Both the position numbers and the translations under genes were made by a program. Under the pieces are notes generated by a model, which saw only the letters and a list, made by a program, of their open reading frames with translations, did not search any database and was not told the origin of the DNA. Positions 7,793-34,184 of a DNA stretch of 34,184 bases are shown here, one piece after another. The first letter of the stretch is position 1. Each line of letters opens with the position of its first letter. This DNA is from Bacillota bacterium (GTDB lineage: Bacteria; Bacillota; Sulfobacillia; JAJYWN01; JAJZPE01), in assembly GCA_036504675.1 (NCBI GenBank), contig DASXUT010000074.1, forward strand, positions 1-34,184. The letters are read 5' to 3'.

Positions 7793-7821
7793 TTGACAGT
7801 AGTTCGCTATTTATGTTAACT
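7793..7821 (+). promoter_or_regulatory. probable sigma-A promoter of the riboswitch-controlled wall gene
   Basis: A perfect -35 TTGACA at 7793-7798, 17-base spacer and a weak -10 TTAACT at 7816-7821 (a TG just upstream gives an extended -10 character). The expected transcript start falls at the 5' edge of the riboswitch. Confidence 0.6.
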
Positions 7822-7825
7822 TGTT

Positions 7826-8052
7826 CACAGCCTAATCCGCGCCGCATTGGAAAGCGCGGACCGGGGGAACCAGAACCGTCCATCAGAGGCGGTAGGGGTG
7901 AACCGCTGCCGCCGACCCGGCCTGCCCAAGAGGGGCCAGGCTCGTTCGGGCCTGCCCGTCATTGGGACAAGCCCCTTGGTCGGCGCCGGCGCGGGCTGTT
8001 ATTCCCCAGTCCGAACCCGTCAACTAACCTCGGCGGCAAGCAAAAGGAAAGG
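7826..8052 (+). ncRNA. c-di-AMP riboswitch (ydaO-yuaA type)
   Basis: Conserved ydaO segments occur in order: GCCTAATCCGCG with its closing hairpin (CCGCGC...GCGCGG), GGGGGAACC, a hairpin GCGGTAGGGGTGAACCGC, a long variable stem region, then the 3' core CGAACCCGTCAACTAACCTC followed by GGCAAGCAAAAGGAAAGG. These match the published aptamer segments (for example CCGACAGCUAAC and GGCAAUAAAGGA of thermophilic representatives). The class binds c-di-AMP and usually turns off wall-hydrolase and K+ transport genes; the downstream gene fits exactly. The P1 helix looks short (GCC/GGC). The 3' core runs directly into the gene's ribosome binding site, with no room for an intrinsic terminator. Boundaries are approximate. 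Confidence 0.88.
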
Positions 8053-8062
8053 GGTCGAGAAG

Positions 8063-8767
8063 ATGAAAGACCGCAAGACGTTTGTCATCTTGGGCTGTCT
8101 CCTGGTGCTGGCATTGCTTGTGGCCAGCCCGCTCAAGACGCAGGCGGCCGGCCTGTCCCGCCTTCTCCAGCGGGGCGACTCGGGCAGCGACGTCCGACAG
8201 GTCCAGGTCGACCTCCAAAACCTCGGCTGCGACCTAGCCGCCGACGGCATCTTCGGCCGAATCACCCAGACCCGGGTCAGGACGTTCCAGGACGGTCACG
8301 GGCTGGTCGTGGATGGCATCGTCGGCCCCCAGACGGATCGCGCCATTGACGTGGCCCTGGGTCGCAGCGGCAGGGCGGCCAACGCCCCGAGCGGAGTGTC
8401 CCGTGGCGGGGGCGTCGTCCAGACCCCCGGCGGGTCAAGAACCTACCGAGGCGTCCTTAACGTCAAGGCCACAGCCTATGACGCAACTTGGGAATCGAAC
8501 GGCCGCTGGGGCCCGGTCGCGGCCTGGAAGGGCCTCGCCCTCCGCCCCGGCATGATCGCCGTCGATCCGCGGATCATTCCCCTCGGTTCCAAGGTCTTCG
8601 TGACCGGGTACAGAAACCCGAACCTCCCTTCCGGCGGTTTCGTCGGGATCGCCACCGATACCGGCGGAGCCATCAAGGGCAACCGGATCGACATCTACAT
8701 GGAGGCGAGCAAGAAGGAGGTTCTGGACTTCGGGATCCAGAACATCAAGGTCTACATCCTGAACTAG
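8063..8767 (+). CDS. secreted peptidoglycan-binding 3D-domain protein
   Basis: 234 residues. A signal peptide (MKDRK, hydrophobic 7-22, cleavage near 28) is followed by a PG_binding_1 repeat (about 37-97: LQRGDSGSDVRQVQVDLQNLG, DGIFGRITQTRVRTFQ), a flexible linker, and a C-terminal 3D domain (about 133-232) with the signature aspartates near 140 (ATAYD), 168 (AVDPRIIPLGSKVFV), 199 (ATDTGG) and 210 (GNRIDIYM). 3D domains share the fold of MltA-type lytic transglycosylases. A role in wall turnover or spore cortex remodelling is expected. ATG 8063 is taken because it begins the signal peptide and AAGGGG lies upstream; open frame further upstream lies inside the riboswitch. Confidence 0.9.
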   Translation: MKDRKTFVILGCLLVLALLVASPLKTQAAGLSRLLQRGDSGSDVRQVQVDLQNLGCDLAADGIFGRITQTRVRTFQDGHGLVVDGIVGPQTDRAIDVALGRSGRAANAPSGVSRGGGVVQTPGGSRTYRGVLNVKATAYDATWESNGRWGPVAAWKGLALRPGMIAVDPRIIPLGSKVFVTGYRNPNLPSGGFVGIATDTGGAIKGNRIDIYMEASKKEVLDFGIQNIKVYILN

Positions 8768-17989: not shown

Positions 17990-18145
17990 AGGGCGGTCTT
18001 CCCCGCCCCGGCCGATCGTCTACACCGGCGGTCCACACCCATCCCCATCAAATCGGGTAGGAGGCGGGTTCGCCCCGCCGTCCTCCCACACCACCACCAT
18101 CAACCCGGATGACCCGAATCGAGTCCAGAAGTGAGTAGGGGAACA

Positions 18146-18174
18146 TCGACTTGGAAACCGCCCCCTGGTAGAAT
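18146..18174 (+). promoter_or_regulatory. possible promoter of the DUF1670-like gene
   Basis: TCGACT (18146-18151, 4 of 6 to TTGACA), 17-base spacer, TAGAAT (18169-18174, 5 of 6). It lies inside the insert, 35 bases before the ATG at 18209, and points the same way as the gene. Confidence 0.5.
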
Positions 18175-18250
18175 GAACTTGCCAGCTCAGTTGGGGGGGC
18201 GGTTCTTCATGGGTCGGGCCTAGTTCTTCCGGCAGAAGCTTGTCAGCCAT

Positions 18251-18991
18251 GTGGACTCCGTCATGGTCAAGACTGTGTATTCGTGGTTACTGCAGCAGAC
18301 ACGAGAGCGCTTTGGGGTGGCGGCTGACGAGGCAGGGCAAGTGGCTCAAAAGGGGTACCTTCTGCTCACGCGAACATTGGTCAAGCGTTCCGAAGAGCAG
18401 GTTGTGTTCATGGCTATCGCTGGGCGGGAGATTCACCGGAAGCGCCCGGCCCAGGATCTCCCCCGCCGGGAGGTGGTGCTCACGCCCTGGGGCCACGACG
18501 ACCTGGAGGTGCACCGAGAGTTCGGCCTCAAGGCTCTCCAGAACGCCCGTCTGGCTCGGCTCATCGAAGAGGCTTACTGCCAAGACGCCTCCCTCTCCAC
18601 CAGAATGCCCTGTCTCTTGACCAACATCACTCCCAAGTCCATCCGGGAACGGCTCATCCCTCTGTGGGGGGCAGATATCCGTCTTCCAGTGGCGGGCACG
18701 GCCAAGAAATATCGCCGGGGGCAGGTATTTCGTTCCACCGCGGCACTCGCTCAGTTCCTGGCCGGTGAACAGCCCAGCGCCATCCGCCAGCGTCTGTGGG
18801 TAAGCCTCACGACTTGGCAGCAGTATCAGGTGGATTTTCTGCACGTGGCCCAGCTTACGGGAGAAGGGTTGGAGGCCACCAGCATTGCCCAACACCTAAC
18901 CTTGGACCCGACGTTGGACGCTGTCAGGCACACACTATGGCCTCTGCTGACTCCTGCCGATTCAACCCGCCCTCTCCGCCCGGTTTGTTGA
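18251..18991 (+). CDS. DUF1670-like protein inside a group IIC intron, probably damaged at both ends
   Basis: Open frame of 246 residues. It resembles DUF1670 proteins, which are of unknown function and tend to occur in mobile contexts (YLLLTRTLVKRSEEQVVFMAIAGREIHRKRP, NITPKSIRERLIPLWGADIRLP and SIAQHLTL in parts). The natural start seems to be ATG 18209, followed by GGT CGG GCC and an in-frame TAG (18221-18223). After the stop the frame continues FFRQKLVSHVDSVMVK, which looks like genuine protein. So translation must restart at GTG 18251 or ATG 18263, or the gene is dead. From about residue 228 (HTLWPLL onward) the protein is encoded by antisense intron sequence, so the original C-terminus is lost. 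The family call is from memory of motifs and is moderate. Confidence 0.55.
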   Translation: MDSVMVKTVYSWLLQQTRERFGVAADEAGQVAQKGYLLLTRTLVKRSEEQVVFMAIAGREIHRKRPAQDLPRREVVLTPWGHDDLEVHREFGLKALQNARLARLIEEAYCQDASLSTRMPCLLTNITPKSIRERLIPLWGADIRLPVAGTAKKYRRGQVFRSTAALAQFLAGEQPSAIRQRLWVSLTTWQQYQVDFLHVAQLTGEGLEATSIAQHLTLDPTLDAVRHTLWPLLTPADSTRPLRPVC

Positions 18992-19282
18992 GTCACTCGA
19001 CCCCCGGCAGGCCTCCCCGGATAAGGACGTTCCCTTTCCTCCCACGCCCGCCGTGTTTACCCCCGCGCCCGTTGGCAGTATCGGGCTTCGCCTTGTGTGG
19101 CAGGCTCGCCCGAGCGCGATTGGCCTGACGCGGTTCATGTTCTTCGGGCCGGAATTTTGCCTCCGGCTTCCTCCAGATTCCGCCTCACGGCGGATACCCT
19201 TGCCTTCGGCTAGCGGTTGGCACTGCCAGCCTCCGCCGAGGACTTTCACCTCCATGAGAACGCCCATGCCGGGCGTACCACG

Positions 19283-19316
19283 AAAAGGGCCGGCTTCAAC
19301 AGCAGCCGGCCCTTTT
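19283..19316 (-). terminator. strong terminator after the beta-propeller gene; intron A target
   Basis: Thirteen-base perfect stem AAAAGGGCCGGCT / AGCCGGCCCTTTT with an 8-base loop, symmetric so it can act in both directions. It ends the low-GC gene pair on the minus strand, and intron A starts four bases after its T-run. The 3' UTR between the stop codon (19462) and this hairpin holds a further inverted repeat (TCTACTAG...CTAGTAGA, 19388-19426) and no gene. Confidence 0.88.
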
Positions 19317-19461
19317 CTCGGCAACTGCATGCTCGTAGGCCTAGGGCACCTTGAGTACATCGGCACTCCATAGGACAGGATGTGGGTTCTACTAGCTCTA
19401 GTTTCGTGACTACTATTACTAGTAGACATGGGATGTTGCCGGTTGGAGTGTAATCTTCAAG

Positions 19462-33807: not shown

Positions 33808-33837
33808 TTGACGAACGTATGTTCGATGGTATATAAT
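33808..33837 (+). promoter_or_regulatory. promoter with embedded LexA-type (SOS box) palindrome
   Basis: TTGACG (33808-33813), 18-base spacer, perfect TATAAT (33832-33837). The spacer contains CGAACGTATGTTCG (33812-33825), a perfect CGAAC-N4-GTTCG palindrome matching the Gram-positive LexA/DinR box CGAACRNRYGTTYC except for the last base. A repressor there would cover the promoter. It reads toward the TnpB gene. Confidence 0.6.
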
Positions 33838-34184
33838 GGAAACACGAAAACCGAAGTCACGCTTAAGGTTCGACTTCTTGAGCCAACGATTACGAAGTCG
33901 TGCGCGCTTTCGGCCATGCAGGAACAGTACACGAAAGCCCTGTCATTGCTGGTGGAGAAGGCAAAGGGGCTTAACACGACCTCCCTGGTACGGTTGCATC
34001 GGGAGGCGTACCACCAAGTCAAGGCCGAAGTCTCACTGCCTTCCGAGTCGCTACGGGTAGCATTGAGTCAGACGTGTCACATCATGCGGTCCTGGAAGGC
34101 CCGGCAGAAAAAGGGGTTGAAGAACAGACCGCCGGTCATCAAGAGGCTTCAGCCAATAGGGGTGGGCATTCACGGATACCGGGT
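33826..34184 (+). CDS. TnpB / IS605 OrfB family nuclease, N-terminal part, cut by window end
   Basis: Frame open to the last base, 119 complete codons visible. From ATG 33826: MVYNGNTKTEVTLKVRLL, then ALSAMQEQYTKALSLLVEKA, LHREAYHQVKAEVSLPSE, and CHIMRSWKARQKKGLKNRPP. This is the usual wedge/REC-type N-terminus of TnpB-like RNA-guided nucleases (EVTLKVRLLEPT start, later basic KARQKKG). The RuvC motifs would lie beyond the window. The start is unsure: the promoter's expected transcript start (~33844) is downstream of ATG 33826, and the next in-frame ATG is 33916, so either another promoter is used or the N-terminus has been joined to this promoter by insertion. No tnpA seen. Confidence 0.75.
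   Translation, partial: MVYNGNTKTEVTLKVRLLEPTITKSCALSAMQEQYTKALSLLVEKAKGLNTTSLVRLHREAYHQVKAEVSLPSESLRVALSQTCHIMRSWKARQKKGLKNRPPVIKRLQPIGVGIHGYR

Follow-up and report, generated by a model that had tools for sequence, protein, structure and literature searches.

The structure between positions 18052 and 19278 is a dead nested insertion, ordinary mobile-DNA debris in which the remains of a group IIC intron enclose the remains of a DUF1670 unit on the opposite strand. It lies in a window of 34,184 nucleotides, the whole stretch of DNA that was analysed, which is contig C74 of a Bacillota draft genome of 199 contigs. Very probably a DUF1670 unit jumped into domain V (D5) of a IIC intron that was already in place, and a single deletion came later. 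The composite is unimportant as an intron variant and should not be read as an association of introns with cargo; the DUF1670 unit is a more interesting by-product than the junction itself. The pieces, in their order along the window, are the following.

18052-18095, minus strand: intron 3' end, comprising the last bases of the D5 3' strand and a complete D6, with the 3' splice site at 18052 (match to intron copies C18 and C166)
18096-18121, plus strand: left terminal inverted repeat of the DUF1670 unit, ACCATCAACCCGGATGACCCGAATCG (match to the left end of unit L094, alignment of nine termini)
18146-18174, plus strand: promoter-like site of the DUF1670 unit, TCGACT-N17-TAGAAT (9/12 matches)
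18209-18922, plus strand: pseudogene fragment of DUF1670 gene A (PF07900 match, translation, alignment of homologues)
18923-18931, no strand: presumed deletion junction, from the end of DUF1670 homology to the D3/D4 boundary, with at most about 9 nt unassigned (tblastn ends, start of intron identity at 18932)
18932-19278, minus strand: 5' half of the group IIC intron, D1-D3 (RF02001 and RF01998 matches, same-genome copies, end of D3)
19284-19321, minus strand: terminator hairpin forming the end of the 5' exon, AAAAGGGCCGGC...GCCGGCCCTTTT (fold and sequence)

A preliminary description, made from the letters of the window alone, had placed the intron ends at 19278 and 18052 with the two halves in the correct order, and both ends were confirmed. 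For the 5' half, Rfam searches of the minus strand matched RF02001 at 19194-19026 (129.7 bits, gathering threshold 32) and RF01998 at 18987-18887 (37.9 bits, gathering threshold 35). The 5' end at 19278 reads GTACGCCCGGC... and directly follows the terminator hairpin, for which folding gave -29.1 kcal/mol (z -6.4). At the D3/D4 boundary, 18932, D3 closes with GGCCATAGT, like the intact introns of relatives. Group IIC introns typically insert behind transcription terminator hairpins; the window copy lies 3' of such a hairpin and contains the D1-D3 ribozyme core, and both of its exons are normal for such a site. Two partial copies elsewhere were 89-91% identical to the 5' half, one on C141, where it is cut by the contig end, and the other in the window at 22043-21839.

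The 3' end at 18052, which reads ...CCTACCCGAT, was 98-100% identical over 45-50 nt to the intron 3' ends of C18 and C166, and in C166 the C-terminal part of a IIC maturase lies directly upstream of the intron 3' end. Because of this shared 3' end and the maturase tail, complete, maturase-bearing IIC introns are present in the genome or were so until recently. The intact D5-D6 segments of C18 and C166 scored 45.5 and 44.9 bits to RF00029 and read AACCGCCGGATGCGGACCCGCATGTCCGGTGGTGTGGGAGG..., with C166 differing by one base. The corresponding stretch of the window copy is only GGTGGTGTGGGAGG..., and RF00029 gave no match in this copy at E<=5. Alignment with the intact copies showed that the D5 5' strand (and apex) is absent from the window intron, and when the 3' piece was folded the D6 stem alone formed. 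The 3' end that had been assigned to 18100-18052 is therefore real in so far as D6 and the 3' splice site are present, but the piece begins at 18095 by comparison with the intact copies and is without most of D5. The extra bases ACCAT are common to the window copy and the copy at 22 kb, and the intron boundary is thus uncertain by about 5 nt; a boundary at 18100, marked by these shared bases, was considered, and the uncertainty of about 5 nt stays. The bases TTGATG before the D6 piece were also considered as the end of a maturase frame (compare TTGATGAACCGCC in intact copies), and a terminus of the DUF1670 unit fits them better.

No sense-strand reverse transcriptase (RT) frame was found at 18101-18931, so that the maturase which IIC introns normally encode in D4 is lacking in the window copy, as is the D5 catalytic hairpin. 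Within the genome, RVT_1 had its sole match at C44, whereas C166 has the IIC maturase tail. The C44 match (8102-8638, minus strand, locus L046), which is truncated by the end of its contig, looks by eye like a retron-like RT with a YSDD motif, not an intron maturase. Group II catalysis requires D5, and a maturase acting in trans cannot replace a missing D5. Because D5 has mostly been lost and could not be replaced by a maturase from another copy, the window copy is, on its sequence, a dead fragment of a IIC intron that would neither splice nor move. It resembles the group IIC (bacterial class C) introns in the sequence and order of D1-D3 and D6, in its insertion at a terminator hairpin and in having same-genome relatives with a maturase in D4. 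It differs from them in that the whole maturase gene and the greater part of D5 have given way to a reversed foreign gene fragment, and it cannot be active. Fragments and interrupted copies of group II introns are known in Enterobacteriales (PMC3522654), and there, as in the window, a truncated copy occurs among active ones and is tied to another mobile element; here, in contrast, the interrupting element is a DUF1670 unit, and a literature search on DUF1670 found nothing.

A second IIC intron copy lies in the window at 22043-21735 (minus strand), behind another strong hairpin. An internal deletion has removed everything between late D1 and the last codons of the maturase frame, inclusive, and in its D5 TCATGGTGGTGGTG replaces GCATGTCCGGTGGTG, a change that is partly common to the 18 kb copy.

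An opposite-strand, DUF1670-like frame had been noticed between the intron halves, and Pfam bore this out: the frame at 18251-18991 (plus strand) matched PF07900 with 55.4 bits (E=7e-15). The longest intact DUF1670 frame in the window begins with GTG at 18251. The natural start is an ATG at 18209, followed at codon 5 by an in-frame TAG (18221-18223), and the window translation here is MGRA*FFRQK against the homologous MGRPTFYRQR (homologues start MGRxxxYRQR). The homologues are about 510 aa long, and by tblastn the homology of the window ends at residue 222-224, about position 18922; the C-terminal 55% or so of gene A is gone, under half of the approximately 510 codons remain, and the last residues of the 18251-18991 frame translate the complement of the intron. 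Because of the TAG at codon 5 and this C-terminal loss, the frame is a pseudogene fragment. The site TCGACT-N17-TAGAAT is present ahead of the frame as had been reported, and 0.2 such sites are expected by shuffling; as a promoter it would drive nothing intact. What had been taken for a DUF1670 gene with its own promoter is thus a genuine DUF1670 frame behind a promoter-like site, but not a whole gene. The closest relative of the window frame is gene A of Desulfofundulus thermobenzoicus (locus L094; 49% identity), and a search of the window's own genome found no second DUF1670.

DUF1670 genes elsewhere occur in discrete units, each of about 3.1-3.2 kb and with two paralogous DUF1670 genes, A and B. 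Two sites of one relative's genome share blocks of 2144 and 922 bp that are 96% and 94% identical; the unit is 3061 bp, and one of the two copies is split by another insertion. Two genera share a DUF1670 block of 3.08 kb, 93% identical, with different flanks, and one copy sits in an apparent IS110-type transposase gene that continues on both sides of it. Most units end after gene B in a (C)GGTTATCTC-like motif. Partial copies in the D. thermobenzoicus genome break at query positions 285 and 3467, and these breaks define the ends of the unit in this species, TCCATCCACCGGTTTAACCCGTAAGG and, inverted, ACTGGAGATAACCGGTATAGCCCGTAAGG, which form an inverted repeat. Units with genes A and B and terminal inverted repeats were delimited at three loci.

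L069, 8747-11807: DUF1670 A+B unit with terminal inverted repeats
L090, 4046-7118: DUF1670 A+B unit with terminal inverted repeats
L094, 4185-7366: DUF1670 A+B unit with terminal inverted repeats

No clear target duplication was read at L068, L069 or L094, and none of the domains known from transposases, integrases or nucleases could be recognised in the units. Gene A was modelled with AlphaFold2 (513 aa, mean pLDDT 87). Sequence and fold searches of the PDB with gene A gave no convincing match and no nuclease fold, which excludes nothing; the best fold matches of the predicted structure, all below Z 6.5, were partial and DNA-binding-like, to short helix-turn-helix, sigma-region-4-like and HU/IHF-like pieces. 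We lean, by a modest degree, towards regarding the DUF1670 genes as an undescribed family of mobile units of about 3.1-3.2 kb, with imperfect terminal inverted repeats of about 20-25 bp and two paralogous proteins without a recognised transposase, integrase or nuclease domain. DUF1670 would then be a new kind of recombinase, or the units would be mobilised in trans, and the window would contain a decayed member. If this is borne out, DNA mobility would be a first role for a Pfam family whose function is unknown.

One subgroup of DUF1670 loci (L073, L078/L096 and L110) has, upstream of gene A and behind GATATGATGG-type ends, a sequence that resembles the N-terminus of an IS1634-type transposase, and at L038 a long IS1634-type transposase-like frame was seen by eye before gene A. 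These units are possibly using IS1634 ends.

The unit end in the window was located with the left end of L094, which had been defined independently of the window. When these 26 bases were slid over the window on both strands, the tied-best score of 17/26 fell at 18096 (three sites of about 68,000), precisely the base where the window begins to differ from the intact intron. The terminus match can be called good, though it would not be decisive alone. When nine termini were aligned, taken from four units and from the window, they had the pattern CATCAACCG...TCCCGAA in common. An 8-mer left-end matrix, built before the Desulfofundulus end was known, was also best at 18096; it was chosen after the sequence had been seen and counts less. 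A point against the insertion of such a unit is the spacer between the unit end and the ATG, which at 113 bp is shorter in the window than in the closest relative (about 317 bp). Like the DUF1670 (PF07900) genes of Moorella, Desulfofundulus and other Firmicutes, the window thus combines a homologous gene A product with a matching left terminal inverted repeat. The units elsewhere have two genes and both ends, whereas in the window the homology ends at about 18922 and the intron follows; because gene B and the right terminus are missing, the window holds a truncated remnant, the left 0.8 kb or so of a unit. The intron is a known host sequence, so the terminus of the unit could be placed almost to the base, which helps to show that these are discrete units with inverted-repeat ends.

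The locus was very probably formed in three steps. Two convergent genes with a transcription terminator between them would first have received a maturase-encoding IIC intron, behind the terminator. A DUF1670 unit would then have entered D5 of this intron, in its 3' strand and in the opposite orientation. A single deletion would have begun inside gene A and taken out the rest of the unit with its right end, the 5' strand of D5 and the maturase gene, stopping at the D3/D4 boundary and leaving D1-D3, the inverted DUF1670 left end and D6. The sequence shows what the pieces are, that D5 is mostly lost, that gene A is a pseudogene and that a unit terminus marks the insertion end at the junction. We infer both the order of these events and that one deletion removed everything between; one insertion with a single deletion accounts for every piece and is the simplest reading. 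The 22 kb copy, with its large internal loss, indicates that such deletions occur in this genome. With the unit's right end gone, and with it any target duplication, transposition into the intron is not provable from both ends. The 5' junction, moreover, coincides with the D3/D4 border, which is also where one would expect a functional swap. Of the two origins that had been proposed at the outset, the insertion of a DUF1670 element into an intron, or its recombination with one, is supported by the unit terminus at the junction and by the truncation of both partners.

An already truncated DUF1670 unit might instead have been joined to intron pieces by illegitimate recombination or successive deletions, with no transposition into D5. 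The degraded state of both partners and the missing right end of the unit would fit such a course, as would the 22043-21735 copy, which shows decay by a large internal deletion. Random breakage, however, is not expected to place the unit's left terminus on the very base at which identity to the intact intron ends, and we regard this course as unlikely. Less likely still is an assembly error at the D3/D4 border, by which repeated IIC introns were joined to a DUF1670 contig. A chimeric join in D4 is conceivable in a draft assembly, and the repeat did trouble the assembler, with the intron copies at C141, C18 and C166 running into contig ends; but a divergence of 9% from the others makes the window copy assemblable, the join between DUF1670 and D6 bears a biological terminus, and the exons are those of an ordinary site.

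The other origin proposed at the outset was that IIC introns bear DUF1670 as cargo in domain IV and are spliced or mobilised by the maturases of other introns in the same genome. The insert does occupy the D4 position, a maturase-encoding intron is among the other copies in the genome, and a promoter-like site precedes the DUF1670 gene. Against this, D5 is mostly gone and is not something that a maturase could supply, the DUF1670 gene is truncated and has an early stop, the genome contains one DUF1670 copy only, and no other DUF1670 gene was found inside an intron, so that we give the cargo proposal, which for this copy is refuted by the loss of D5, hardly any credence. For this last point, 20 DUF1670 loci in relatives were searched with flanks of up to 1.5 kb, and an Rfam intron was found in none (0/20). 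In the scan of genome contigs, the window protein alone retrieved 0 close relatives and an alignment query retrieved 38 loci. With flanks of up to 4.5 kb, a group II D5-D6 match occurred at one of 36 loci in genome contigs, L108 (3107-3026, minus strand; RF00029, 47.3 bits). It is separated from gene B by about 110 bp, beyond the unit and at the contig end, reads toward gene B, and is of a non-IIC type as judged from its sequence. In class-wide searches, in which just four intron candidates per genome were scored, none of the contigs listed for DUF1670 was listed for an intron as well, except the window. Altogether, none of about 55 other distinct loci (from overlapping sets) was inside an intron. 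The outcome that had been named beforehand as refuting the association, in which DUF1670 has ends of its own, occurs by itself at unrelated sites and does not recur in IIC introns, was looked for and found.

Two further features of the window were recorded. A c-di-AMP riboswitch (RF00379, 50.2 bits) lies at 7819-8053 on the plus strand, ahead of a gene whose product, judged by eye, is a peptidoglycan-binding / 3D-domain protein. At 33808-34182 (plus strand), a frame that runs off the contig end resembles, by eye, the start of a TnpB-type transposon protein.
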